The notes under the pieces were generated by a model that saw only the letters and a list, made by a program, of their open reading frames with translations, made no database searches and was not told the DNA's origin. 46,410 nucleotides of DNA, taken from positions 1 through 46,410 of the forward strand of contig JAJXZS010000009.1 in NCBI GenBank assembly GCA_021779955.1, in the 5' to 3' direction. Shown here one piece after another: positions 1 to 31,100 of this stretch. This DNA is from Chloroflexota bacterium. GTDB lineage: Bacteria > Chloroflexota > Anaerolineae > Anaerolineales > Anaerolineaceae. Positions within the stretch are counted from its first letter, which is position 1, and every line of letters starts with the position of its first letter. The position numbers and the translations under genes were made by a program.

Positions 1-3000
1 GGCGGAACATAGGCACTCCCGTGTTCCGCTTTCAGAAGGAATATCGCCATCTGCGCCCGGGTCACAGGTTTCTGTGGACAGTACATCCCCGCACTACAGC
101 CCGAGGTGATGCCTTCAGCAGCCAGTTTCTCGATCCAGGCTCCCGCCCAGTGACCCACCGGCACATCGCTGAACAACGCGCCGCTGGCTACAGGGGGAAG
201 ATAATCCTTTCCATATTTTCCTTTAAGCAGGAATATCGCCATCTGTGCCCGGGTCACCTGGTTATCCGGGCAGTAGCGCAAGGGTGCCAGGGCACAGCCG
301 CCGGTGATGCCCTGCGCATACAGCCCTTCGACGTAACGGTAGTACCAGGCCGGGGGAACCACATCGGCAAAGGTGATGATGTACAGGCTCTTTGCAGCGG
401 ATTCGCCAGGGTTGGTTGTGGGGTTGTAGACCATAACATTGATGGTCTTGATCTGCGTCAGTTCGGTCTCATTCACCCAGGTGTACAGTTGAGTTGAATT
501 GACATATGTCGTGTCCCGATCCACCCCGTCCATGCGGATGATCGAGTCTTGGGCAAAATTGCTCCCGTTAACCATCAGCGCGAACGAGGACGTGTTCGTT
601 TGAGCTGCAGTGGGCGAAAGCGCCGAGATTACCGGCAGTGGAGTTGAGGCGGTGAAATTGATCCCGGTCAGGTTTCCGCTCACATTCACACTACGAGTGG
701 TGGGAGTAAACGTGTAGCCTGCCTTCGATGGGGTGATCGCTTTCGAGCCGGCGCTGACATTCTGCAGAAGGTACTTTCCGTCCGCTCCTGTGAGCGTGCT
801 GAGCCCTCCCCCGGCGCTGATGGTCACCCCGGAGACCGGTCCGCCCGAGTTGGTCACCGTTCCTGAGATTGTATAAGTCGATGCCGAAGGCTGGCAGGTG
901 TAGATGCCTACATTGTCGACCACCCAGCCGAAGTACGTTCCGGTTTCATCGGTTGCCAAACGCCAGCGGAAGCGAATGTTTTTTCCTTTAATGTTCGGAT
1001 CCAGATCCAGATTGTATCTTGTGGATACAAATCCATGGCTGTCGATTCCAAATGCCTCACGACCTCTCAAGATATTGGTAGTTCCGTGGGGATAGGTGTA
1101 ATCGTAAACGACATTGTCATACGCCTGACCACTATCGTAAAGAACCTTTGCATCTTTCCATGCCCCGCTGTTGACACTGTATTCAAGCACGCCTCCGTCG
1201 TATGAATACAGCTTGCTGTACTGGTCGATTCCAATTTCAAAAGCAAATGAATGGTCGAAATGGAGATAAGTCGTTCCGGTCGCTGGAACTTGCACGCCGT
1301 TTGACATGGACGCGATCATATCAGATGTGTAGTTCGCCTCAGGACCAAAAAGGCTGTAATCCCCAGTCGCAGCGTATCCGATTGCCCGCTGCCAGTGAGC
1401 CGGCGCTGTGGGATCGGAAAAAACCCAATTGTTGGTAGGGGTCTCGAAACCATCCTGGAAGAGATAGCTGGGGGCGCTTCCGGCCGCGCAGACAGGTGCT
1501 TCCGGCGTGAAGTTGGGCGCCGGATCCAGATTCATCTCCACAGCGTCGAGCGCGTTCTTGACCTGGGCGCAATCAGTATGGGTAACGCCTGCCGGGCCGC
1601 CCACCACATTGTGGCAGGCCTGCTGGAGCGCGTAGTATAGGTCTTTGTAGTCAGAGCCTGAGGTGAGCAGATGAAGCTGGGCTTCGAAGTAGATCTCGGC
1701 AACCTTGTCCAATCCAATGCCGGTAACCGTATGTCCATCATAAGTACCGCCGTCGGTCATCAGGTAGACAGCGTGATTGTTGACGCCGCTGTTGGTATGA
1801 ACGCCACCGTTATCGAAACTGAAGTATCCAGCGTTTGTAGCATTCAAATCGAGAATTCCGTGATGATAAAGCGGATCGGTGATTTTTGCAGGTTGACTGA
1901 AATTGTTCGGATTAGCCATATCTCGAACCGGACCGTAACTCGCTTCAATCATCCACCGGCCGAAAGTTGAATAGCCATAAGTTTGGTCGACGAACTCACC
2001 CCACAGATCGGAGAATGACTCATTTATCGCACCCGATTGATACCAGTAGTAAAGATCTGAGGTGTAATCGGTCACCCCATGCGTCAATTCGTGGCCAACG
2101 GTATCGATCGTGGTCATATCGTCGCCGAATACAACCTCCTTACCATCCCAAAACGCATTGTTATAATAATATCCATAGTGTACGCTATTGACGAATGGAA
2201 GCCCTTTTCCGTCCAGTCCACCCCACCCATGATGCAACAGATAAAAAGTAGAGGTAGCCATTGCATGTTTCTGAGCATAGTCGGCATTACTATCATTCCC
2301 ATACGTACAGCTATAATCGGTTTCGTCGCATAGAAAGACTCCCGGAAGCGGGACTTGTTCTTCCGTCAGGTTTTGCATCGTATATGTGCTGATCGCGATG
2401 CCGTTGGTTACAGTAAGGACAGTTGGCTTATCTACTCCTTGCACTGTTGCGATCACAGAATAGATACCAAAAATTGAATTTTCCACATACTTTGTCTTTG
2501 CCATGCCGGTTTGGTCGGTGACAAGCGAGATGAAATACGATCCATTGGGAAAAGTGCCGCTTGCCCCTGAGGATGGAGCCGTCAGGGTGACAGGAACTCC
2601 GGCAACCGGAAGCCCATTTGAATCCAGGACAGAAACACCCAGTTCATCTGCGAGCGGATTGCCTGCATGACCGTACCGAGATTGCTCTTTGTAAGGGAAG
2701 ACAAACGCCGGTGTAACACCCCCAAATCGGGATTCGACCGCACCGATATCGCAGTAAGCTACCCCATCCAGATCACCGTCGATCGGTCGGGCAGTACCTA
2801 TTTGATCGACAGGCTCGCAGGACCCTGCGTCTAAACTCTTGATTCCATCGACTGCCTTGCTGCCTGGAACCAATGCGTGGTAGCCACCAGGCAGCAAAGG
2901 TGTAAGCAATAAATTGATTTCTGGATTCTTGTATACAATGTCCGTGGCTTGGGCCATTCCAGAGCAGTATGGATCGAAAATGTTATATCCGAGCGAAATA

Positions 3001-6000
3001 ATGCCGGCGCATGACACATATTGGTAGTATCGATTTCCAGCTACGATACTGTTTTGCAGGTATATAGGACCTGTTGTGGCATAAGATCGACTGCCCGTAA
3101 TCGTCGAATTCTTAATAGTTGAGATTGATCCAAGATCATTATCGATTCCCGAATTTCCAATCCCGCTGATGGTGGAATTGACAAGTTCAAAATGACCATA
3201 ATTCGTGATTCCGTCAGTAGATTGGCTTACGACTGATTGCTTGATTATCGCATTCGCGCCTTTACTTACAACTATACCCACTCCAGTATTGCGGATCCAT
3301 AAGCGTTCGATTGTAACTTCGCCCGCGTTCACTTCCAACGAAGAGCCGTAGGCTCCCTTATCCATAATTGTTAAGCCCGCCTGATTTGTATAAGTATCGT
3401 TCCAGCCGCCCAAAAGCGCCAGGTTCTTGTTAATTTTGGCCATAGGCACATTTGGCATGGTACCTAAATATGTTTCTGCTGAAATCTTGATAATATCCCC
3501 ACTAAGAGCCAAATCAACCGCTTTTTGAATCGTTGCGCAGGCCATATCAGGCACATTACAATTATTGGAGTCACTGCCGGATTTCGAAACATACCAGGTG
3601 CTGAAAGCGGCATTGTTCATTTGAATGCCGAGGGGGGGAACTCCCGGTACTTCCGCAATAACCTCGAATGATCCAAGAATGCCATTTGCCGTGAACACTG
3701 GCGGCGTCGCGACCCCATTTGAACTGGACGTTGCAGTTGTTGTAACGGACGCGGTATCTGCAAACGTACCGCTTGCCCCTGACAACGGTGCCGTAAATGT
3801 AACCACCTGGCCAGACATTGGGAAACCAAACTGGTCAAGAACTTTGACACTCAGCTCACTATATGCCATGTTGATTCGCGCAGAACGGTTGGTACTTCCA
3901 ACAATTTCTAAAGACCCAACAGTGGCTATCTCATTTACCATCTGGAACTGAACTTCAATAGCTGTTCCCGCAACATGGGCAGAGACGCTGAATGCTCCTT
4001 CAGTTCCATTCGCTGTGAACATTGAAGCAAGTGCAATTCCCTCGTTATTAGTCAATGCAGTCGAAGTTGCTGTTCCTGTATCGGCAAAAGTGCCGCTGGC
4101 ACCGCCTGAGGGAGCAGTAAAGATCACTTCAACTCCGGGCATCGGGGCGCTAGTCTGATCCGTTACCCTTACCGCCATCTGTCCATAGGCAGAAAGAGGA
4201 TTTGCGTGCAAGCTGGTTTCTCCCACAATTTCAGCTTGGCTGGCGACGGGGATATAAATATAAGGAGTTTCAAATGCGCCAATATCGCAAATCGACACGG
4301 TATCATTGTTGCCGTCCAAAGGTCTTACCGTTCCGAGCTGATCGGTCTCCCAGCATGATGGATTCCCTGTTCCGGGCGTAACGTTGCTTCCAGCATCCAC
4401 CACTGGACTTGTTGATGGGATATCGTAAACACCCGTGGATAAAAGCCCGCCAAATGAAGTACCCACGCCGGTGATATCCCCGTCTCCGGCCGTATACGTG
4501 CACTCCGCGGCATTTTGGATCAGGTTATGGCTCTTTTCTGGAAAGCTTCCATTGCTGGCGCAATCTGAAATGGCAGGAGCATGATTACCTGCAATGACCG
4601 TGTTGAACATCTTCGCTACGCTACCGGCGAAATAAGCTCCACCTGCAGCGACGCGCGCGGTATTGTCAAAGATAGTCACATTGTAGATATTGATGGCCCC
4701 TGTGTTATTGATTCCGCCGCCAGTACCTGTTGCATAGTTCCCGCCAATTGTTGTGTTATAGATCGAGGTTGAGTAGGTATCTACCAATTGGATACCACCG
4801 CCATATACGCCGGTATTTCCATGAATCGAATTATTCACCAGAGTCAGGTTGACGTTCGGTCCAGCGTAAATCCCGGAATTTATCATGTTGACGATTTCGA
4901 AATTCTCGACACTGACGCAGACAAGATAGGATGGGTCGATATAAATCCCCTGGCGGACGCCCTCGCCATCAAGTTTTGTATATCCAACCTTTGCTGAAAA
5001 ATCGGAATTCCAGCCACCGCTCAAAACGACACCCGTATCGACCACCACAAAATGATCGCCGGAAATATCGCTGCTGGTATAAGTCTCGGCCGCAATCCGG
5101 ATCTCATCCCATTCGGTAGCCTTGTCCATCGCTCCCTGAATGGATCCACAGGACGTCGACGCGCTCAAACAGTCATTGGTATCATTTCCCGCTTTTGAGA
5201 CGTACATTATCCTTCCCACTTCTTGTGCTGTGAAAGAACTGCCACTCACCTGCTCAGTTGGACGAGGCGACCCCGTCCACCCTTCGGGCGGCTGAGCGGT
5301 TGGAGTAGGCGCAGGCGTGGCTGTTGCCTGAACTTCCTGCGCCACCCCTGCCGTGTTCGTATCCACCTGGTTGAATTGCAGGCTGATGCCTCCCCGTTCC
5401 GCGTTCACCAGCACCAATATACGCATGCTCTTGTCATTCGCCACCGTGGCTTCCATGCGCCACACCAGTTCGGCCGGTTTGGTGGAGGGCATGATCAGCC
5501 GCTCATCGAAGATCCACAGCTCGGGCTCGCTCAAGACCACGTTCGCAGGGTCTACCTGGTAATTCTTTTCCATCATCCCCACGGCCTGGCTTTTGGCTTC
5601 CTCGGCAGTGATCACCGGTTCCGTGGATATGGTCAGAGCGGGTGAAGCCTCTCCAGACATCGAGTACAACATTCCGCCTGCCGAGAGATCCACAATGATC
5701 TCCCCGCCCATCACCGGAATGCCCTGGTAGGTCTGCTGGTAACGGTAGTACTTGTGCTCAGCACCTGCCACATCCTCTTTCATCAGCGAGAGTTCTTCGG
5801 TCGGATTTTGGATGCCGAACATCGGCCCATATTGAGCCAGGGCTGCTCCCAGCCTGTCACCAACTTGCTGTGCCCCCATCTGCGGACTCTCCACAGGCAA
5901 GGTTTCCCCATTGGCTGCTCCGATAAAGGTGACCATGCCGGTTTCTTCACTCCGGTCGATCACCGGTTCGTCGGCAGCCTGATCTGTGGTTTCAGCTACC

Positions 6001-6104
6001 GATGCGTCTTGCGCCTGCACCGGATTCATCGTGGCCGGCACGTACATCAGTGACTGGAATAGCATGGCGGCTACCATGACAGCATTGAGGATGGTGTTTT
6101 TCAT
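1..6104 (-). CDS. Giant secreted M4 (thermolysin-like) metalloprotease with beta-helix, Ig-like and SLH domains (3' partial)
   Basis: An uninterrupted minus-strand frame of 2034 codons runs off the left edge, so the stop is not seen. I checked the frame at the start, at 5205, 3441, 2088 and 3. Start ATG 6104 has AGGAG six bases upstream. In order: signal peptide (1-30); FTP/PepSY-type propeptide (about 90-260); Pro/Thr/Ala linker; right-handed beta-helix (about 300-620); two Ig-like (Big-1-type) repeats (635-725, 735-827); second beta-helix (833-1125); third Ig-like repeat (1142-1245); M4 domain (1265-1525); MAM/lectin-like region (1540-1735); carboxypeptidase-regulatory-like domain (1740-1812); IPT/TIG domain (1817-1902); SLH repeats from 1909. 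The zinc site is HELTH with His1338, Glu1339, His1342 and then GAINES Glu1362, the 4- and 20-residue spacing of thermolysin; His1436 in GGVHTNSG matches its transition-state histidine. It should be a secreted peptidase anchored to the cell envelope. The roughly 1000-residue insertion between propeptide and catalytic domain is odd. Confidence 0.9.
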   Translation of the reverse strand, partial: MKNTILNAVMVAAMLFQSLMYVPATMNPVQAQDASVAETTDQAADEPVIDRSEETGMVTFIGAANGETLPVESPQMGAQQVGDRLGAALAQYGPMFGIQNPTEELSLMKEDVAGAEHKYYRYQQTYQGIPVMGGEIIVDLSAGGMLYSMSGEASPALTISTEPVITAEEAKSQAVGMMEKNYQVDPANVVLSEPELWIFDERLIMPSTKPAELVWRMEATVANDKSMRILVLVNAERGGISLQFNQVDTNTAGVAQEVQATATPAPTPTAQPPEGWTGSPRPTEQVSGSSFTAQEVGRIMYVSKAGNDTNDCLSASTSCGSIQGAMDKATEWDEIRIAAETYTSSDISGDHFVVVDTGVVLSGGWNSDFSAKVGYTKLDGEGVRQGIYIDPSYLVCVSVENFEIVNMINSGIYAGPNVNLTLVNNSIHGNTGVYGGGIQLVDTYSTSIYNTTIGGNYATGTGGGINNTGAINIYNVTIFDNTARVAAGGAYFAGSVAKMFNTVIAGNHAPAISDCASNGSFPEKSHNLIQNAAECTYTAGDGDITGVGTSFGGLLSTGVYDIPSTSPVVDAGSNVTPGTGNPSCWETDQLGTVRPLDGNNDTVSICDIGAFETPYIYIPVASQAEIVGETSLHANPLSAYGQMAVRVTDQTSAPMPGVEVIFTAPSGGASGTFADTGTATSTALTNNEGIALASMFTANGTEGAFSVSAHVAGTAIEVQFQMVNEIATVGSLEIVGSTNRSARINMAYSELSVKVLDQFGFPMSGQVVTFTAPLSGASGTFADTASVTTTATSSSNGVATPPVFTANGILGSFEVIAEVPGVPPLGIQMNNAAFSTWYVSKSGSDSNNCNVPDMACATIQKAVDLALSGDIIKISAETYLGTMPNVPMAKINKNLALLGGWNDTYTNQAGLTIMDKGAYGSSLEVNAGEVTIERLWIRNTGVGIVVSKGANAIIKQSVVSQSTDGITNYGHFELVNSTISGIGNSGIDNDLGSISTIKNSTITGSRSYATTGPIYLQNSIVAGNRYYQYVSCAGIISLGYNIFDPYCSGMAQATDIVYKNPEINLLLTPLLPGGYHALVPGSKAVDGIKSLDAGSCEPVDQIGTARPIDGDLDGVAYCDIGAVESRFGGVTPAFVFPYKEQSRYGHAGNPLADELGVSVLDSNGLPVAGVPVTLTAPSSGASGTFPNGSYFISLVTDQTGMAKTKYVENSIFGIYSVIATVQGVDKPTVLTVTNGIAISTYTMQNLTEEQVPLPGVFLCDETDYSCTYGNDSNADYAQKHAMATSTFYLLHHGWGGLDGKGLPFVNSVHYGYYYNNAFWDGKEVVFGDDMTTIDTVGHELTHGVTDYTSDLYYWYQSGAINESFSDLWGEFVDQTYGYSTFGRWMIEASYGPVRDMANPNNFSQPAKITDPLYHHGILDLNATNAGYFSFDNGGVHTNSGVNNHAVYLMTDGGTYDGHTVTGIGLDKVAEIYFEAQLHLLTSGSDYKDLYYALQQACHNVVGGPAGVTHTDCAQVKNALDAVEMNLDPAPNFTPEAPVCAAGSAPSYLFQDGFETPTNNWVFSDPTAPAHWQRAIGYAATGDYSLFGPEANYTSDMIASMSNGVQVPATGTTYLHFDHSFAFEIGIDQYSKLYSYDGGVLEYSVNSGAWKDAKVLYDSGQAYDNVVYDYTYPHGTTNILRGREAFGIDSHGFVSTRYNLDLDPNIKGKNIRFRWRLATDETGTYFGWVVDNVGIYTCQPSASTYTISGTVTNSGGPVSGVTISAGGGLSTLTGADGKYLLQNVSAGSKAITPSKAGYTFTPTTRSVNVSGNLTGINFTASTPLPVISALSPTAAQTNTSSFALMVNGSNFAQDSIIRMDGVDRDTTYVNSTQLYTWVNETELTQIKTINVMVYNPTTNPGESAAKSLYIITFADVVPPAWYYRYVEGLYAQGITGGCALAPLRYCPDNQVTRAQMAIFLLKGKYGKDYLPPVASGALFSDVPVGHWAGAWIEKLAAEGITSGCSAGMYCPQKPVTRAQMAIFLLKAEHGSAYVP

Positions 6105-6261: not shown

Positions 6262-7143
6262 TCATGCCATGAGCAGCTTGAGGCTCTCTTTCCATCCCGG
6301 GAACGATAATCCAAATGCCTGCTGGAATTTTTGGATCGACAACTCAGTCTGCAGCGGACGGGTGGCTGGTGTCGGAAATTCATTCGTCTTTGAAGGCAGC
6401 AGTTCCTTCACTTTGTGCTCATCTTTCCCTTGATCAAGCTCCAGGATCGCTTTTGCCCACTCGTAGCGGCTGGCGGCGCCCGCTCCCGCAAGATGATATA
6501 GCCCTGATTTTTCCTTTATATACCCGATAGGATCACTTCTTCCCCGGGCAATCACCAGAGCAGTCGTTTCGGCCAGCATCCGCGCAGAAGTTGGGCAGCC
6601 GATCTGGTCATCCACCACCCGCAGGGTTTCCTGTTGGCGTGCCCATTGCAGCACCTTGGTCACAAATCCCCCCTGGCGCATGCTATAGACCCAACTGGTG
6701 CGAAAGATCAGGGTTGCCCCTCCCGAGGCTTCGACGACCTGCTCGCCGCCCAATTTCGACCTGCCGTAGACATTCAACGGATTCGGAGCGTCCGCTTCGA
6801 CATAGGGCGAACCTTTCATACCGTCGAAAACATAATCCGTCGAGTAATGGATCAGTGCAGCATCACATCGCCGAGCTTCCTCTGCCATAACCCGCGGAGC
6901 ATCAGCATTGATCCGCTGCGCAAGCTCGGGTTCACTTTCGGCTTTGTCCACGTTGGTATACGCCGCCGCATTGACGATGATTTGAGGGGAAAGCTTGCGA
7001 ATCAGCTCACGAAGATTTTCAGGCGCCGACAAGTCGATTTCTGGATAATCCAGGGCAATGACATCACCTAGGGGGGTCAGAGTTCGCTGAAGCTCCCATC
7101 CCAACTGGCCGTTCTTCCCGATCAGGAGCAGTTTAATGCTCAT
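6262..7143 (-). CDS. rfbD: dTDP-4-dehydrorhamnose reductase
   Basis: This 293-residue protein matches RmlD, the last enzyme of dTDP-L-rhamnose synthesis, which reduces dTDP-4-dehydro-L-rhamnose with NAD(P)H in the cytoplasm. Seen: the N-terminal Rossmann motif GKNGQLG, the STDYVFDG motif and the catalytic YxxxK in YGRSKLGGE. Length is normal for the family. It is the last gene of the operon; its ATG overlaps the rfbA stop by four bases (7140-7143), suggesting translational coupling, and a terminator follows. The three other rhamnose genes directly upstream make the assignment secure. Confidence 0.95.
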
Positions 7144-8009
7144 CCCCTTTTCACCAGTCGCTGAAGATATCCGCCGTAGCCGTTTGTGCTCATCGCTTTG
7201 GACAGATTAAGGAGTTTTTCGCGATCGATGAACCCCATGCGATATGCAATTTCTTCGACACACGAGATCATCAAGCCCTGCCTGTCCTGCACCGCCTGGA
7301 TGAAGTTGGCCGCCTGCAGCAAAGATTCGTGAGTACCTGCATCCAGCCAGGCAATCCCTCGGCCCAGATATGTGACGTGCAGTTCACCCATTTCGAGATA
7401 CAGCTTGTTCAAGTCAGTGATCTCGATCTCCCCCCTTGGAGAGGGCTTGAGCGATTCGGCAAACTCGACAACACGCCGGTCATAGAAATAGATACCAGGG
7501 ACAGCATAATTCGACTTCGGGGCTTTGGGTTTTTCCTCCAGGCTGATGGCCTTGCCTGACGCATCGAATTCAATCACGCCATAGCGCTCGGGGTCGCGCA
7601 CCTCATACGCAAAAATGCAGGCGCCGCTCTTCAACTCTGCTCCCTCGCGCAGCCGTAAAACCAGGTCAGTGCCAAAGAAGATATTGTCGCCGAGGATCAG
7701 GCACACCGGTTCGCCGGCAATGAATTCCTTGCCGACAATGAAGGCATCGGCCAAGCCGCGAGGTTGATCCTGCCTCGCGTAATCAAAGTGAAGACCCCAC
7801 TGCGAGCCGTCCTGAAGCAGACGCTGGAAGGAGGGTAAATCTTCGGGCGTGCTGATGATCAAAATATCCCGGATATTCGCAAGCATGAGCATCGAGAGTG
7901 GATAGTAGATCATCGGTTTGTCGTATACAGGCAGCAATTGCTTGCTCATTGCCTGGGTAAGGGGATTCAAACGAGTCCCTCTTCCACCTGCCAGAATGAT
8001 GCCCTTCAT
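7140..8009 (-). CDS. rfbA: Glucose-1-phosphate thymidylyltransferase
   Basis: This 289-residue protein matches RmlA, which makes dTDP-glucose from glucose-1-phosphate and dTTP, the first step of the dTDP-rhamnose pathway. The nucleotidyltransferase signature [11 protein letters not shown] is at residues 8-18, followed by [17 protein letters not shown]. The later motifs [16 protein letters not shown] and [10 protein letters not shown] are also present. The length is that of the short RmlA class. It sits between rfbB, nine bases upstream, and rfbD, which it overlaps. Its start at 8009 is preceded by an AGGAAG-like ribosome binding site. Confidence 0.96.
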
Positions 8010-8018
8010 GCTTCCTCC

Positions 8019-9089
8019 CTATTTACGCTCTTCATAATTTTTTACCACCCAGGACTGGTATTCCACCTGCTGGCGGATCGCGGACACCCATTCGGGGTGA
8101 CCGAGGTACCATTCGGTCGTTTCACGCAGCCCCAATTCGAGTGTGTGGGTTGGCACCCAACCCAATTCCCTCGAAATTTTGCTGCTATCCATGGCATAAC
8201 GGCGGTCGTGGCCAGGCCGGTCCTTGACATACTGGATCAACCCGCGTCGAGGAGTGCCGCACGGACTCATCTCATCCACCAAATCGCAGATCTTGTGAAC
8301 GATGGACAGGTTGGTGGGCTGATTGCCTCCACCGATGTTATAGCTGCTTCTATCTTTCGCCTGCTTCAGCACAAGATAGATCGCATCGCAGTGATCCTGA
8401 ACATGCAGCCAGTCGCGAATCTGATTCCCATCTCCATAAACCGGCAGAGGCTTATTTTCGAGAGCGTTCAGAATGATCAGAGGGATCAATTTCTCAGGGA
8501 ATTGGTTCGGCCCATAATTATTCGAGCAATTGGTGAGAGTGTATGGAAAATGGTAGGTGTGCCCATAAGACCGGACGAGATGGTCTGCCGATGCCTTCGA
8601 AGCTGAATAAGGCGAACTGGGAGCATATGGGATTTCTTCCGTCCAGGCGGGTTCTCCGGGTTTCAGGGTGCCGAACACCTCGTCCGTTGAGATGTGGTGA
8701 AATCGAAACCTGGCTGAATCAAGACCGCCGTTTGCTGCCCAATACTTCCTGGCAGATTCAAGCAATGTGTAAGTGCCCACAATATTGGTCTGGACGAACT
8801 GGCCCGGCCCCAGTATCGAGCGGTCGACGTGGCTTTCGGCAGCGAAGTGCACGATCGTATCGATCTCATGATCTTGCAGCACGCGGTCCACCAGTGCGCC
8901 ATCGCAAATATCGCCATGAATGAAGCTATGGCGGGATTCATCAGGTAGCCCGCGCAAATTCTCCAGGCTGCCTGAATAGGTGAGAGCGTCCAGGTTGTAG
9001 ACATGGACAAGAGGTTCTTTTATCTGCAACGTGCGGATGAAATTGGATCCAATAAATCCGGCGCCACCTGTCACCAATACGTTTTTCAT
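8019..9089 (-). CDS. rfbB: dTDP-glucose 4,6-dehydratase
   Basis: This 356-residue protein matches RmlB, an NAD-dependent short-chain dehydrogenase/reductase that converts dTDP-glucose to dTDP-4-keto-6-deoxyglucose. Visible are the NAD-binding TGGAGFIGS near the N-terminus, FAAESHVDRS, the catalytic TDEVFG, the active-site YSASK and the sugar-nucleotide-binding NNYGPNQFPEKLIP. Length is typical. Its ATG overlaps the end of rfbC by four bases (9086-9089), and rfbA follows after nine bases, so it is inside a tightly packed operon. Confidence 0.97.
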   Translation of the reverse strand: MKNVLVTGGAGFIGSNFIRTLQIKEPLVHVYNLDALTYSGSLENLRGLPDESRHSFIHGDICDGALVDRVLQDHEIDTIVHFAAESHVDRSILGPGQFVQTNIVGTYTLLESARKYWAANGGLDSARFRFHHISTDEVFGTLKPGEPAWTEEIPYAPSSPYSASKASADHLVRSYGHTYHFPYTLTNCSNNYGPNQFPEKLIPLIILNALENKPLPVYGDGNQIRDWLHVQDHCDAIYLVLKQAKDRSSYNIGGGNQPTNLSIVHKICDLVDEMSPCGTPRRGLIQYVKDRPGHDRRYAMDSSKISRELGWVPTHTLELGLRETTEWYLGHPEWVSAIRQQVEYQSWVVKNYEERK

Positions 9090-20796: not shown

Positions 20797-22980
20797 ATGG
20801 TTGATCTTTGGACGATTTCGGAAGCTTCATTCGAACCCAGGAGATTGCGCCACAACGAGACGGTTTTCACCGTTGGAAACGGATACCTTGGCACTCGCGG
20901 GGCTTTCGAGGAAGCCTACCCCGGCGACCAGCGGACGACTTTCGTCCACGGCGTTTTTGACAACTTACCGATATTCTTTTCGGAACTGGTCAACTTTCCT
21001 GATTGGCTCGAACTGGAGATCATTCTTGCGGGCGAGCACTTCGACCTGGCCGAAGGAAAATTGCTGTCTTTCGAAAGGCATCTCGATCTGCGCAACGGAC
21101 TGCTCACGCGCACGCTGCGCTGGCGAAGCCCTGCCGGCCGCACAACCCGCATGGAGTTTCGCCGATTCGCAAGCCTGGCCGATGTGCATGCAGCCTGTTT
21201 GCAGGCAACGCTTACACCCGAGGATTATTCGGGAAAGATCGAATTTCGAAGCGGATTGGACGGCGGTACGGACAATTTGAGTTTCAAGCACTGGGATTGG
21301 CTTGGGCAGGGTACAGAGGATCAGACCTGCTGGCTGCACCTGCGCACTCACTCGAGCCAGATCGAAGCAGCCATGGCAGTCCGACTTCAGGTTGAAAGCG
21401 GGGCCGCTGTGGCCACCGAAAACTGGGATGTTCACGCCCACCCGACCCTCGCCTGTTCCACAGACGCCGAACCTGGGCAGACCGTGCGCCTGGAGAAGAT
21501 AGTGTCGATATTTACAGGCAGAGATACGCAAGATCCGTTGAGCGCGGCGAGGAAGAAACTGGCATCCCTGACCGGCCGCAATTGGGATGCGCTGTGGCGC
21601 GAGCATGCCAAGGCCTGGAAAGAGGAGTGGCGGCGCTGCGACGTGGTCATCGAAGGCGATGACGAAGCCCAGCTTGCCATCCGTTTCAACATCTACCATC
21701 TGCTTATTGCCGGGCCCAGGTACGACGAGCACGTGAACATCGGCGCCAAAACTCTCAGCGGCTACGGGTATCGGGGCCACGCCTTCTGGGATACCGAAAT
21801 CTTCATGCTGCCTTTCTTCACATTCACCCGACCAGAAATCGCGCGCAACCTGCTCTCTTACCGCTATCACAACCTGCCCGGCGCGCGCGAAAAAGCTGCC
21901 GAAAACGGGTTCAAGGGCGCCCAATATCCCTGGGAGAGCGCAGGGGACGGGCGCGAAGTGACACCTACCTGGGTGCCCAACCCGAACGACAGGACGCGCA
22001 TGATCCGCATCTGGACTGGCGACATCGAGATCCATATTTCGGCCGATATCGCCTTTGCGGCATGGCAGTACTGGACGGCTTCGCATGACGAGGAGTTCCT
22101 GGTCGAACGCGGCGCAGAAATCATCCTCGAGACGGCGCGTTTTTGGGCGAGCCGGGCTGAATGGAATCAAAAACGCGGAGATTACGAGTTCAAAGATGTG
22201 ATCGGGCCGGACGAATATCACGACCACGTGGATAACAATGCCTATACGAATTTGATGGCACGCTGGCACCTCCGCCTGGCGCGCTCCATTGTGGATTGGT
22301 TGAAAGAACATCATCCGGCGAAAGCCGCCCGTCTCTTCGAGAAAATCGACCTGAAAGAGGACAATCTTGAACGCTGGCAGCAGATCGCGGATCATATCTA
22401 CCGCCCGGTAAACCCGAAAACCGGACTGATCGAGCAATTCGAAGGCTATTTCAAGCGCAAAGATGTCAGCCTGGAGTCCCTTGAACCGCGCAACGAATCC
22501 GCGCAGAGTCTCTTTGGCATCGATGGCGCAAACGAAGTCCAGATCATCAAGCAGCCGGACGTGGCCATGCTGATGTACCTCCTCCCCGGTGAACTCGAAC
22601 CCGCGTATGCCAAAGTCAATTACGATTACTACACCGAGCGCACCGACCTGACATTTGGTTCGTCGCTTGGCCCTTCCATTCAGGCGATCATGGCCACCCG
22701 CCTGGGCACGCCCGGCCAGGCATACGAAAATTTCATTCGCGCTGCCCGAGCCGACCTGGAAGACGTGCGCGGCAACGCCGGAGACGGCATCCACGGCGCA
22801 TCGGCAGGCGGCTTGTGGCAGGCGGTTGTCTTCGGTTTCGGCGGGTTGCAGATCAGCGATGAAGGCTGGACGCTCACGCCCAAACTTCCTGCCCATTGGA
22901 AACGCCTGGCGTTCAAATTCGTTTGGCGCGGCGAGGAAGTCAAAGTAGATCTCAAGGGCGAGGACGGCGCAGGCCATTGA
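20797..22980 (+). CDS. GH65 family disaccharide phosphorylase
   Basis: A 727-residue enzyme of glycoside hydrolase family 65, an inverting family that phosphorolyses alpha-glucosides (maltose, trehalose, kojibiose, nigerose and others) to beta-glucose-1-phosphate. The N-terminal beta-sandwich begins NETVFTVGNGYLGTRG. The (alpha/alpha)6 barrel has GYGYRGHAFWDTEIFMLPFF, YPWESAGDG and the catalytic acid Glu473 in VIGPDEYHDHVDNNAYTN. The C-terminus keeps the QAVVFGFGGLQ region. The frame opens upstream inside GH130, but ATG 20797 with AGAGG seven bases before it gives the normal N-terminus. The substrate is not decidable by eye. No beta-phosphoglucomutase gene is in the window. Confidence 0.9.
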   Translation: MVDLWTISEASFEPRRLRHNETVFTVGNGYLGTRGAFEEAYPGDQRTTFVHGVFDNLPIFFSELVNFPDWLELEIILAGEHFDLAEGKLLSFERHLDLRNGLLTRTLRWRSPAGRTTRMEFRRFASLADVHAACLQATLTPEDYSGKIEFRSGLDGGTDNLSFKHWDWLGQGTEDQTCWLHLRTHSSQIEAAMAVRLQVESGAAVATENWDVHAHPTLACSTDAEPGQTVRLEKIVSIFTGRDTQDPLSAARKKLASLTGRNWDALWREHAKAWKEEWRRCDVVIEGDDEAQLAIRFNIYHLLIAGPRYDEHVNIGAKTLSGYGYRGHAFWDTEIFMLPFFTFTRPEIARNLLSYRYHNLPGAREKAAENGFKGAQYPWESAGDGREVTPTWVPNPNDRTRMIRIWTGDIEIHISADIAFAAWQYWTASHDEEFLVERGAEIILETARFWASRAEWNQKRGDYEFKDVIGPDEYHDHVDNNAYTNLMARWHLRLARSIVDWLKEHHPAKAARLFEKIDLKEDNLERWQQIADHIYRPVNPKTGLIEQFEGYFKRKDVSLESLEPRNESAQSLFGIDGANEVQIIKQPDVAMLMYLLPGELEPAYAKVNYDYYTERTDLTFGSSLGPSIQAIMATRLGTPGQAYENFIRAARADLEDVRGNAGDGIHGASAGGLWQAVVFGFGGLQISDEGWTLTPKLPAHWKRLAFKFVWRGEEVKVDLKGEDGAGH

Positions 22981-25155: not shown

Positions 25156-28100
25156 TTAATTTCCCTGGTCTGCAACTTCTCCAAGCTCGATTTCAACTGT
25201 GTGCATCTTGCGGTCGTCCACCAGGCGGATCTTGTGATTCTTTTGAGCCACGCCGTCCAGGGTCACCGATTTCACTTTGCCGCTAACATGATTAGGATTG
25301 CTCACCCGGATATGATAGCCGGCAGATCCGTGCTTGTACTCGATCTCGTAGCCATCCCATTCGGGTGGAATGGCCGGATCGATGCTGAGAAAATTGCCGG
25401 CCTTCTTGAAGCCCAGCAGCCCTTCCACTCCCAGGCGATACATCCAGGCAGCAGAACCGCTGTACCAGGTCCACCCGCCCCTGCCCAGGTAAGGCGGCCG
25501 GCTGTAGATATCAGCACACATCACATAAGGTTCTACACGATACAGGTCGGCTTTCTCATTTGAATCCGCCATAAGGATCGGGTTGAGCTGTGAAAAGAGA
25601 GCGCCCGCCTGCCCGCCTTCGCCCAGCCTGGCAAACGCCCAGGTTGTCCAAATGGCTGCATGGGTATATTGTCCGCCATTCTCGCGTATTCCAGGAAAAT
25701 AACCTTTGATGTAGCCGGGGTCTCGAGCGGATTTGTCGAACGGAGGAGCGAACAGCAGGGAGAGCCGATTCTCAGGCTGCACCAGCCGTTCGAGGACAGA
25801 TTGCATCGCCTGCCGGCTGCGGTTTGCCTGGCCTGCCCCGCTCAGAACCGACCACGATTGAGCGATCGCATCGATCTGGCATTCCAAATCCAATTCGGAT
25901 CCGATTGGCGTACCGTCATCGAAATAAGCCCGCCTGTACCAGCCGCCGTCCCACGCGCTGCGCTCGATGGCTTCCGAATATTCTTTCGCTTTAGAGCGGT
26001 AACGACTTGCCGTCGATGCATCGCCGTGTTTCTCGCTGATCGCGGCGAAGCGTTCCAGCACGTCGCACAGGAACCAGCCCATCCACACGCTCTCGCCCCT
26101 GCCTTCCACGCCCACCCGGTTCAGGCCATCGTTCCAGTCGCCTGTGCCAATCAAAGGCAGTCCGTGTACTCCACTTGTGGCGCCTTTCTCGATCGCCCGC
26201 AGACAATGGTCGAGCAGCGTAAATGTTGCGTTTGTGTGGGAGTAATCGTTATAGCGTTCCAGCTCATCATCATTCAGCGGCGGGGCGTCCAGATACGGTA
26301 TCTTTTCTTCCAGGATGTCGGCGTCTCCGGTGGTTTCGACGTAGATGGCCGTTACGTAAGGCAGCCAGAGCAGATCGTCAGAGATGCGTGTGCGCACACC
26401 TCGGCTGAGAGGCGGGTGCCACCAGTGCAATACATCACCCTCGGTGAACTGGCGCTGAGCGGCATTGAGGATCTGCCCGCGCGCGATTGCCGGGTCTACA
26501 TGGAGAACAGAAAGCACATCCTGCAGTTGATCGCGGAAGCCGAAGGCGCCGCTGGGCTGATAGAATGCCGACCGTCCCCAGATGCGGCAGGAGAGCGCCT
26601 GGTAGAGCGTCCAGCGGTTGAGCAGGATATCGGTTTCGGGCTGCGGGGTATGCACCTGCAGCGTGCCAAGCAGATGATCCCAGAAGGCGTGCGTGCGCTG
26701 CAGAGCCGCGCCAACATTACTGGGATCATGGTACTTGCCCGCCAGGTTGAGGGCATCCTCTTTGTTACTTCCCTCGCCCAGGACAAAATAGAACTCCTCA
26801 CTCGCGCCTGGCAGCAGGTCGAGGTGGATCTGGAGGGCCGCGCAAGGGTCTTCGCCCGGAGTGAGCCGTGTTTCAAGGCCGATGCGCTGCAGTGCTGCAG
26901 GGTGTGCCCAATTACCTGCACGGCCAAGGAATTCGGCGCGGTCAGCCGTCAAACCGTGTAAAGATTTGCTTGCGGTGAGAAATGCGGTGCGCTGCCCGAA
27001 TTCGGCGTTGTAAGGATTGGTAGCCAGCAGGCAGGCATGAGACGTATCATATTCGGGAATGATGTAGGGCGCCGTGGACGCACGCGTCGTCCCAAGCACC
27101 CATTCGACATATTGGGTTGCCGTCACCCTGCGCGGCCTGTCGAGATCATTGTGCACTTTGACGTGGATGATCTTTACCGGATCTTCAGGGCTGGCGAAAA
27201 GTGTCAGCTGCTGCGTCAAACCATGCGAATGATGTTCGAAAATGGTATATCCTGCGCCGTGCCGTACTCGATAGGGTAAGCCATCGCCGGCGGGTAACGG
27301 CGTCGCGGACCATACTTCGCCGTTTTCTTCGTCCCTGAAATAGAGGACTTCACCTGTCGGGTCGGTCACGGGATCGTTCGACCAGGGTGTCAGACGGTTT
27401 TCACCGCTGTTGATCGACCATGTCGTCTGGCTGCCGCTCTCGCTGACCATGAAACCAAATTTTGGATAACCGATAATATTGACCCATGGAGCGGGTGTGT
27501 GTTTGCCCGCAGGAAGGTCGATGACATATTCATGACCATCCAAGTTGAATCCGCCGTATCCATTGAAGAATTGCAGTTCTTCCAGTTTCGGGAGGGTGCC
27601 CTCTTCGTAAGCCGGGATCGTTCCTTCGGACGGCCGGGTAAAACTGAACTCGGGCAAATGATGCACCTGATAGGGATACGGGGGCATCTGATCATGGAGC
27701 GAACCCTTTTCGCCTTTGAGAATGTATTTTGCAGCAGTCTGCAATAACACGGCTTCATCGGCGTTGATTTGATCGGCATAGAGGATGAAAATACCTCCAC
27801 GCTGATTGAGCATCTGCTCAAGATTCATGCGGCTCACGGTGCGGTGGAGAATACCGTTCAGCTCCGCTCCATATTCGGTACGCTGCCTGTTCAAGATAAC
27901 CACATCGACTGAAAACCGGCGGCTGCGCATGAAATCCTGCACCTGCAGGATTTCGCGCACAAGATCGACATGTTTGGCATCTTCGATCTCGACGAGAATG
28001 ATCGGATAGTCTCCTGAAATACCGAAACGCCACAGCCCCGATTGTCCAAGCCGGTTTGCAGATATGATCTCCGGCGCAGCGCGTACGAGTTTGAACGGGT

Positions 28101-31100
28101 AGAGCATCGCAGAGAGAATTTGCATCGTGTCTTCGAGGAGCTGCGATGTAACTCCCTTTTTCCCCATCCACGCCTGCATTGCCAGGTCGGCATGATGATA
28201 TGTGCGTTCGATGAGCGGCCAAAGGCTGTAGCGGGCTGCCATCGCCAGAATGCCCTCGCGGCTGTCAGCAGCAAAAGTAAGATAGGCTACTTCTGCGCTT
28301 GCATGCGGGTGAAGATCGAGTTCATGCCCGAGCGAAAAGATCGGGTCGAGCGTGGCTCCGCTTGTCCCGCTCAAGTAGGCGTCATTTGTGAGGGCAGCCG
28401 GCGCCCGCGTGCTGCCTCCGCGCCCGATGAATTGCCTCCGGTCTGCTTCGTATCGAATGTTTAGCTGATGAGGGTTGGTGCCTTCCAGGCTTTCGACCAC
28501 CAGCATGTGCCCCAGGTACACGGGTTTTTCGTCATTCGAGCGCAACCGCCGGGTGAAAATCTGCAAATTGTATTGAGGTACAAATTCGCTATCGATAAAT
28601 AGCTTGTTGAACGCTGGGTGGCGTGTATCGCCGGCTTGCTGCGTGAGAATGACCTCGCCGTAGGAGGTTAGACGCAAATTTACCGGCTTGTTGCCAGCGT
28701 TGTGCAGATGTACGCGCCGAATCTCCACGGGGTCGTCTGACGCGACGGTCACTTCCATCGTGGAAAAGATATTTTCCTCAGAGCGCCGGTACACAGCCAT
28801 ATGCGGGAAATAAGTGACCTGAACGTTGGAGGCGTCACCCGGGATGGGCTGATGCCCTGCAGACCACAGCCTGCCATAAGAGATTTTGCCATTGCGGCTG
28901 TGCTCAAGCTGCTGAATGTAGATCCAGGTTCCCCAGGAATCAAGCGCCGGGTCAGCCTGCCAGCGGGTCAGGTCGATGTCGCGCCAGGTACTGTACCCGC
29001 TACCCATATTGGAGATCAGAACGCTGTAGTCCCCGTTGGACAGCAGGTTCGCTTGCGGAATGGCAGATTGCACAGGCACATTCCAGGGGGCAATTTGCGT
29101 CGACGAAGTGGCGATCCGTTGAAAGCCTTTGACTTCACCTGCGAAAGGATTCTGCACGGGCGGCGCCTGGGGAATCTGTTCCTGCAGCAACAACTCCACG
29201 CTCTGGATGCGCGGATCGGAGTGCATGCGTCTGACCATGATGTCGTTTTGGAAATAATTGACGAGCGCCATCATGATCATGCCCTGGTGGTGAGCCATGT
29301 ATTCCTTCACGATCTCCGACTTCACACCCGGCGGCAACCGGCTGCTGGTGAAATCGATCGATTCATACAATCCGTAGAGGCCGTAGCAGTTGCGCGCTAT
29401 AAGGTTGGTCAGGTTCCTGGCCACGGCGGGAGCATCATAGCGGATCGCCAAGAGCGAAGCATAAGGAGCGACCACAAGGTCATCCGCCAGGCCGCGCTTG
29501 AAACCGAGACCCGGAACGCCGAACGCGCGGTACTGGTAATTTTGATTGGGGTCGAAGCGGTAGAACCCTGCCTCAGAGATGCCCCATGGGACGCCCTTGC
29601 TCCTTCCGTAATTGATCTGATGGGTAACAACCACATGGGCGCTGTTGTCCAAAAGAGTGTTTGGAAACGCCCGCAAGAACAGGGGCGACAGCAGATATTC
29701 GAACATCGTTGCGCTCCAGGAGAGGAGCACGTATTCACCTTCGACCCGGGTCAGCGGACGTCCAAGCTGCAGCCAGTGCGAATGCGGGACGTCTCCTTTC
29801 GCCAGGGCAATGATGGAGGCAATTCGAGCTTCAGACGCCAGAAGATCGTAGTGATTGTTATCGAGCATGCCGGCATCGAGATTGTAGCCATTGTGGAAAA
29901 CCCGCCTTTGCGGGTTGTAGAGGAATTGGAAATCCATTTCATCGACGAATCGTTCAGCCTGGGTAGCCAGCGTTGCATAATTGCTGACCAGCGATTCTGC
30001 ATTGAAGGCCGCCTGTGCCAGCGCCGTATCAATCCGTTCGACCCAGTCCTGGGCTTCACGGACAAGTGCCTGGTCGATCACCGGTTCCCCGCTTTTGACA
30101 TCCGTCTCAAGGCTGTAGGGATTGCCATTCAACCGCCGGCGGAGTTCACCCGTCTGGCTCATGGCACTCATTGCCAGGTTGCCGATCCTTCCAAGAAGCG
30201 GGTTGTAAGGCAGGTTGTTTCTCAAGGTATTGACCGTCTCTGCAATCTCGCCCTGCTTGAGCAGCTGCGGTGTGCCTTCCAATAAACCGATCCATGGCAC
30301 CAGTTCATCGAGAGTGCGCTGGATGGCCTGATGGTTGCGGTTCACCTGGGCAGCAACCTCTTCCAATTCACGCAACGCGTCGAGGGTGAGGGCAGAGCTT
30401 CCCGCAGACACCAATTCGCCCAGGCGCTGCGAGACATCGATCCAAAATGAGCCTTTCGCCTCCTGGAACAGGTCGTACCACTGTGCGGGCTCGGTTCGAA
30501 CCGCGAGAATGCGGTCGTGCATACGCCCGATCCGGTTGGTGATCTCTCTCACCTGCCCCGCCACTTCGCCTTTTCCCATACCCTCAAGAACTTCGCCCAG
30601 GGTGGACAGCGTATCGAGGTAGCCACGCCAGAGATCCCAGCGGAAAATCAGCGCGTTGGGCATGGCCTTACAAGCCTGGGCTATGACGACCAAACTGGCT
30701 GCAAGATTACCGCTGTCGACGGTGGAGATATAGCGCGGAATCAGCGGCTTCAAAGTCAGCGTATCGTACCAATTGAGAAAATGGCCACGAAAGCGTTCCA
30801 ACTGATCGAGTGTTTCGAGCGTGGTGGTGAGCCGTGTGGATAACCCAAGCTGATCGAGATATCCAAAATCGAATGCAGCCAGAGTCGACGTGAGCAGGAG
30901 GCCGATATTCGACGGTGAAGTCTGGTGGGCGATGATCCCCACCGGCGATTCCTGAAAATGATCGGGCGGCAGCCAGTGATCTTCAGGCCCTACAAACCGC
31001 TCGAAGAACCCCCATGTACGACGCGCCACCCGCCGGAAGAGGTCGGCTTCTTCATCGCCCAGTGGAATGCGCTTATGAACGATTTGCCTGTCGATGCGCT

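Follow-up and report, generated by a model that had tools for sequence, protein, structure and literature searches.

The junction between propeptide and catalytic domain of M4 proteases in Anaerolineales: a putative slot for exchangeable modules

The window analysed here is an entire contig of 46,410 bp (JAJXZS010000009.1) from a Chloroflexota bacterium of the family Anaerolineaceae, and its left end carries a gene for a predicted secreted M4 peptidase in which beta-helices and immunoglobulin (Ig)-like domains stand between the propeptide and the catalytic domain. Repeated borders, varied contents and the exchange of a block between close relatives all argue that this junction, as read from the sequences, is a slot for exchangeable modules. 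Why does the position matter? In M4 enzymes, inhibition is released at the stretch that joins propeptide to catalytic domain. The finding that as many as 2455 residues can be accommodated there suggests that neither folding nor activation depends on the two parts being near each other in sequence.

The protein and its insert

The gene is a single open frame (positions 3-6104, minus strand) of 2034 codons, with an ATG start and no stops, that runs off the left end of the contig; the true C-terminus of the protein is therefore absent, and the break falls within the SLH repeats. No other protein of the source genome has a Peptidase_M4 match. The parts of the protein are listed by position in the window, strand, feature, residues and basis.

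6009-6104, minus: signal peptide-like stretch, residues 1-32 (translation inspected by eye)
5364-5954, minus: propeptide with FTP motif and PepSY-like half, residues 51-247 (PF07504 above cut-off; alignment to the 5a3y propeptide; profile match)
5208-5363, minus: Pro/Thr-rich linker on the propeptide side of the insert, residues 248-299 (composition and border comparison among inserts)
4266-5207, minus: right-handed beta-helix 1 with a choice-of-anchor Q end, residues 300-613 (PF13229; NF041518; confident part of the model)
3933-4250, minus: Ig-like (Big_1) domain 1, residues ~619-724 (Big_1 stretches; bounds from BLAST among inserts)
3612-3920, minus: Ig-like (Big_1) domain 2, residues ~729-831 (Big_1 stretches; bounds from BLAST among inserts)
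2733-3602, minus: beta-helix 2 with a choice-of-anchor Q end, residues ~835-1124 (second Beta_helix and choice-of-anchor Q stretches)
2403-2717, minus: Ig-like (Big_1) domain 3, abutting the catalytic domain, residues ~1130-1234 (best Big_1 stretch 1154-1232; strands of the model)
1530-2387, minus: M4 catalytic domain, residues 1240-1525 (PF01447 and PF02868 above cut-off; thermolysin fold in the model)
2079-2093, minus: zinc-binding HELTH, residues 1338-1342 (sequence motif)
891-1502, minus: MAM-like jelly roll, residues 1535-1738 (common to relatives; InhA/MAM fold match; below the sequence cut-off)
651-872, minus: CarboxypepD_reg domain, residues 1745-1818 (PF13620 above cut-off)
384-641, minus: choice-of-anchor Z (TIG-like) domain, residues 1822-1907 (NF058597, 68.7 bits against a cut-off of 30)
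3-368, minus: SLH repeats, broken off by the contig end (PF00395, two stretches; search of the own genome)

Judged by its domains and zinc site, the protein is an M4 peptidase in an arrangement that is not the usual one. Peptidase_M4 (residues 1234-1346, 71 bits against a cut-off of 22.4) and Peptidase_M4_C (1349-1523, 103.4 bits against 24.4) both match in Pfam. The catalytic part holds HELTH, INESFSD and DNGGVH, and thus HExxH, a downstream glutamate and the DNGGVH histidine, which we take to be the catalytic residues of family M4; the zinc-site columns show no variation across all 11 insert-bearing proteins described below.

A preliminary description of this DNA had proposed two beta-helices and three Ig-like repeats between an FTP/PepSY propeptide and the catalytic domain, followed by MAM-like, regulatory-like, TIG and SLH domains. 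The insert was borne out in one frame of 2034 residues: two Beta_helix stretches (39.6 bits against 25.9) and three Big_1 stretches (40.4 bits against 34.9) exceed their Pfam cut-offs, as does MG4 on the Ig part, and NCBIfam adds two choice-of-anchor Q stretches, the best at residues 562-613. The flanking domains needed revision. FTP matches at residues 118-152 (41.2 bits against 21), but neither PepSY nor TIG appears among the Pfam matches of this protein at E <= 1; the PepSY-like half was assigned because residues 106-263 align weakly with the propeptide of PDB entry 5a3y, and the supposed TIG domain is choice-of-anchor Z by NCBIfam. CarboxypepD_reg (35.3 bits against 32.3) and two SLH stretches before the contig ends (46.3 bits, above cut-off) stand. 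The MAM-like domain is kept by its fold in the model, InhA-like_MAM scoring 15.1 bits, under its cut-off of 26.9.

A structure model of the insert has a mean predicted local distance difference test (pLDDT) score of 62.7; its quality is good in the first beta-helix alone, and some parts beyond are fair. Its fold matches to InvE, invasin, intimin and a beta-helical alginate lyase are weak (TM-score 0.09-0.15 on the query), and they lend weak support because the second half of the model is poor.

Is such an arrangement known? Thermolysin, bacillolysin and vibriolysin MCP-02, all of family M4, have in common with this protein the FTP-type propeptide, the M4 and M4_C domains, the zinc site and the fold. 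In contrast to thermolysin-like M4 enzymes, 992 residues separate propeptide and catalytic domain here, which upholds the earlier view that the arrangement is unusual, and the hairpin ahead of the FTYDAKNR-like strand is absent. A catalytic domain straight after the propeptide, with its N-terminal hairpin, is a hallmark typical of M4 rather than strictly defining it, and this protein departs from it. The module types resemble those of invasin- and intimin-type Ig adhesins and of beta-helix proteins, in which there is no protease. SLH-anchored proteins commonly carry three terminal SLH repeats; two stretches are visible here before the contig ends. In the open-licence literature, to which our search was limited, we found no described example of such an insert in an M4 enzyme, in agreement with the preliminary description.

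Could separate genes have been fused by an assembly join or a frameshift? The gene does end at a contig edge, within repeats, in an assembly of 56 contigs, and G+C content, ~0.57-0.60 over the propeptide part, is down to ~0.48-0.52 where the insert reaches positions 5000-5250. However, the catalytic part is as low in G+C (0.45-0.53) as the insert, there is no such step at 3600 or 2400, and the 2034 codons are free of stops, including at the joints near 5300, 3600 and 2400 that the preliminary description had singled out for checking. The same arrangement is seen in nine other genomes. Three of these are represented by public contigs: JABGOQ010000092.1 (titled Anaerolineae; gap of 885 residues), JACRBI010000051.1 (995 residues) and JACRBL010000067.1 (840 residues), the last two titled Chloroflexi. 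With an unbroken frame and independent assemblies, despite the G+C step, we reject such an artefact, which we regard as practically inconceivable. An origin of the insert from elsewhere in its own genome was likewise rejected, there being no other match at E <= 0.001.

The junction in relatives

The gap between propeptide and catalytic domain was measured within single frames, using profiles of the propeptide, catalytic and MAM-like parts from seven relatives. Large inserts were found in 11 proteins, namely the 992 residues here and ten loci in nine other genomes from three families (f1, f4 and f12) of one order, with lengths of 450, 464, 733, 812, 839, 884, 994, 1191, 1475 and 2455 residues. 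Gaps of 36-94 residues occur in six loci (L044, L045, L077, L080, L086 and L103) and gaps of 7-17 residues in 18. Eleven loci with weaker matches have gaps of 30-60 residues, and L050, in which the catalytic match starts at profile position 91, has one of 180; we read these as probable effects of profile fit. In the order sample, all 35 matches at E <= 1e-50 were examined, plus part of the weaker ones. The 35 comprise 12 loci with an insert, five with a linker, 16 with neither and two left unclassed. The 12 are the 11 proteins in which the propeptide is seen and the truncated L084, whose contig begins inside the insert and shows, by eye, beta-helix and Big_1-like sequence directly ahead of the catalytic domain.

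The borders recur. On the left, the propeptide ends in FNQ[VI], and tryptophan is the fourth insert residue (a DTxW motif) in 10 of the 11 inserts; on the right, the catalytic part opens at a TYT-like strand. This strand corresponds to FTYDAKNR of Bacillaceae enzymes, an inner strand in Bacillus-type enzymes. The N-terminal hairpin that precedes it was seen in Bacillaceae only and is absent here and in the relatives; in this protein, as in those relatives whose matches begin near the profile start, nothing aligns to positions 1 to 27-33 of the Pfam M4 profile.

The contents vary. Beta-helix/choice-of-anchor Q units with Ig domains, at ~400-430 residues per step, are commonest. The 2455-residue insert holds six Beta_helix and four Big_1 stretches, and single units from other inserts match it repeatedly by BLAST. 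The insert of L081 contains FG-GAP repeats, and those of L079 and L082 have propeller-like matches that lie below curated cut-offs.

One pair of loci is particularly informative: L082 and L083, which come from different genomes within a single genus. Their catalytic domains are 92% and their propeptides 88% identical, and their flanking DNA is 86.6% identical over 1519 bp and 86.3% over 739 bp. The inserts, 733 residues (propeller-like and Ig) in L082 and 450 residues (beta-helix) in L083, have no significant similarity (best protein E = 1.1). DNA similarity ends 13 bases past the end of the propeptide and returns one base ahead of the TYT codons. At the level of sequence, this pair shows one clear block exchange between close relatives, with its borders at the junction. 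A broader proposal, that of a cassette system in which a conserved self-cutting frame carries exchangeable payloads of 450-2455 residues, swapped whole by recombination in the flanks and released or displayed by maturation, seems to us doubtful.

A tree was built from 61 rows of joined propeptide and catalytic segments, 481 columns in all. The rows classed as insert or linker, 16 in number, form one side of a single branch, with support of 99/96 (100 in a quick tree). Insert versus no insert requires at least five changes on this tree, which does not distinguish gains from losses. The protein studied here groups with two proteins of the same genus that have Pro/Thr-rich linkers (gaps of 86 and 94) instead of modules. 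The label "linker" was assigned to five rows by our judgement, and other rows with gaps of 30-109 were scored as having none where the gap could be put down to a catalytic match beginning late in the profile, to a propeptide match that stops short or to the normal hairpin; this scoring is a judgement for L107 (gap 58) and for a distant group (30-60). Left out were the contig-truncated or partial L084, L086, L100, L106 and L115, L110 with its split catalytic domain, L145 with two catalytic pieces, L050 and others below 100 bits for the catalytic part, public loci below 240 bits, and duplicate contigs; the loci of the class and phylum samples (L210-L244, including L215) stand outside the tree. 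Together with its neighbours, the slot clade offers a natural length series (7-17, 36-94 and 450-2455 residues) for studying the position of self-cutting and the stretchability of the link.

Maturation of insert-bearing proteases

What becomes of the insert when the protease matures? M4 enzymes lose their propeptide at the junction between propeptide and catalytic domain. In the reading that we favour, and to which we give an even chance, the propeptide would behave as elsewhere in family M4, folding and inhibiting the catalytic domain, and self-cutting would occur in the flexible stretch directly after its FNQ[VI]D end. The beta-helix/Ig array would then stay on the mature enzyme as an N-terminal arm, beside the C-terminal jelly roll and SLH anchor, and the SLH repeats would hold the enzyme at the cell surface. 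By analogy with the accessory PPC domains of the Pseudoalteromonas M4 enzyme E495, which bind protein substrate (PMC3327674), the arm may keep matrix, polysaccharide or protein close to the active site, and a change of arm may bring a change of target. E495 is likewise an M4 enzyme with accessory domains, substrate-binding in its mature form, but there they lie C-terminal of the catalytic domain and here N-terminal of it (PMC3327674). If the arm is real, close relatives would be exchanging, as one block, the targeting part of a bacterial surface protease.

Two kinds of evidence point to the propeptide side. The first 40 insert residues are richer in Pro/Thr/Ser/Glu than the last 40 in all 11 inserts, and in 10 of these they contain fewer hydrophobic residues. 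On the catalytic side, a model of residues 1120-1745 (mean pLDDT 78.4), which matches thermolysin and, lower in the list, InhA and MAM structures, separates the last strand of the Ig domain from the first strand of the catalytic domain by three residues. The compositional bias and this short joint together lead us to favour a propeptide-side cut. Several points tell against the slot and the arm as we picture them. The joint is modelled at a pLDDT of only ~65-82; five inserts have a tail of 7-15 residues on the catalytic side that is potentially cleavable; and if only Pro is counted, the catalytic side has the higher number in L041 (6 versus 4) and the two sides are equal in L078. The inserts are mutually related, so that 11 of 11 are not 11 independent observations, and the protein studied here does not keep the DTxW motif, having DTNT instead. 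The position of the cut is deduced from sequence and model, and binding by the arm is proposed by analogy.

The preliminary description had considered a cut just ahead of the catalytic domain, by which a very large adhesive fragment would be released or stay bound as an inhibitor or shield. In the rival reading that follows from it, propeptide and array would leave together, to serve as an adhesin, a coat protein or a shield. What is known of the family allows this, since M4 propeptides are removed at this junction, and the five catalytic-side tails would suit it. A distant precedent is FibA of Myxococcus xanthus, an M4 enzyme with a non-catalytic PPC part at its C-terminus that ends up in the spore coat (PMC3236237). 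FibA (also Protein C) resembles this protein as an M4 precursor with a non-catalytic part that takes on a second role at the surface, but that part is the C-terminal PPC and not a module between propeptide and catalytic domain (PMC3236237). With the flexible stretch on the opposite side in 11 of 11 inserts, hardly any room at the modelled joint between Ig and catalytic domain, and a TYT strand that matches an inner strand of Bacillus-type enzymes, we consider this release unlikely and do not favour it.

Cutting at both ends of the insert would set free a beta-helix/Ig array alongside protease and propeptide. Exchange of whole inserts would suit such an independent payload, and some members have tails at both ends, but there is no sign of a common cut site on the catalytic side and the joint is tight in this protein, which makes this outcome improbable. 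We attach equally little probability to one uncut chain, in which the FTP part would be a folding aid only and the array a fixed spacer. A long spacer might indeed let the propeptide leave the active site uncut, but the FTP-motif residues and the zinc site are kept as in self-processing relatives. A propeptide-side cut that leaves the array on the enzyme remains our preferred reading.

Spread, contig ends and neighbouring genes

How widespread are these proteases and their inserts? Catalytic-domain matches at E <= 1e-8 occur in 18 of the 147 genomes of the family, and the order sample has matches in 91 of its 400. At E <= 1e-40, the class sample gave 31 of 396 and the phylum sample 20 of 400, both samples overlapping the order. 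The matches at this threshold that lie outside the order amount to 35 loci (23 of the same class and 12 of the same phylum), all of which were retrieved; both domains lie in one frame in 33 of the 35, and none has a gap above 70 residues. Linkers are not confined to the order, because L215 (G569:C27, 3844-6666, plus strand), of the same class and another order, has a real Pro/Ala-rich junction linker of 35 residues. Among the best 80 public loci, beyond which rarer cases may lie, 73 have both domains in one frame. Gaps above 300 residues occur there only in L128, L130 and L135, which by their length are the contigs of L078, L081 and L099 and were already counted; L184 apart, the other gaps are at most 162 residues, inflated by weak propeptide matches and the N-terminal hairpin.

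L184 (Calditrichaeota J004, RFFS01000088.1, 7923-11489, plus strand) has a gap of 252 residues, with a MAM-like jelly roll of ~200 residues at the junction; this is probably an independent use of the same junction site. In L110 (G370:C41, 5180-8194, plus strand), the M4 catalytic domain itself is split by ~158 residues between the HExxH part and the rest, and the splitting segment resembles, by eye, a protease-associated (PA) domain.

The right end of contig C34 (L125) and the left end of contig C54 (L124) of the source genome carry SLH C-termini much like the broken one of the window, the piece on C54 with in-frame stops. Exact end overlaps of at least 15 bases with the window were found in none of C34, C54 and C1. 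Seven of the 16 slot genes in the tree leave their contig at the C-terminal side (the window gene, L077, L080, L081, L082, L083 and L085), and repeated C-terminal modules may break assemblies.

Next to the protease gene, the genes at 6262-9089 (minus strand) resemble by eye the dTDP-rhamnose genes rmlD, rmlA and rmlB. A 670-residue open frame at 20965-22977 (minus strand) has no Pfam match at E <= 0.001; a 788-residue frame overlaps it on the other strand, and either may be the gene. At 25156-34056 (minus strand), a 2966-residue protein combines GH94 supersandwich and catalytic domains with a glucoamylase-like domain, a set presumably the same as in cyclic beta-glucan synthases.

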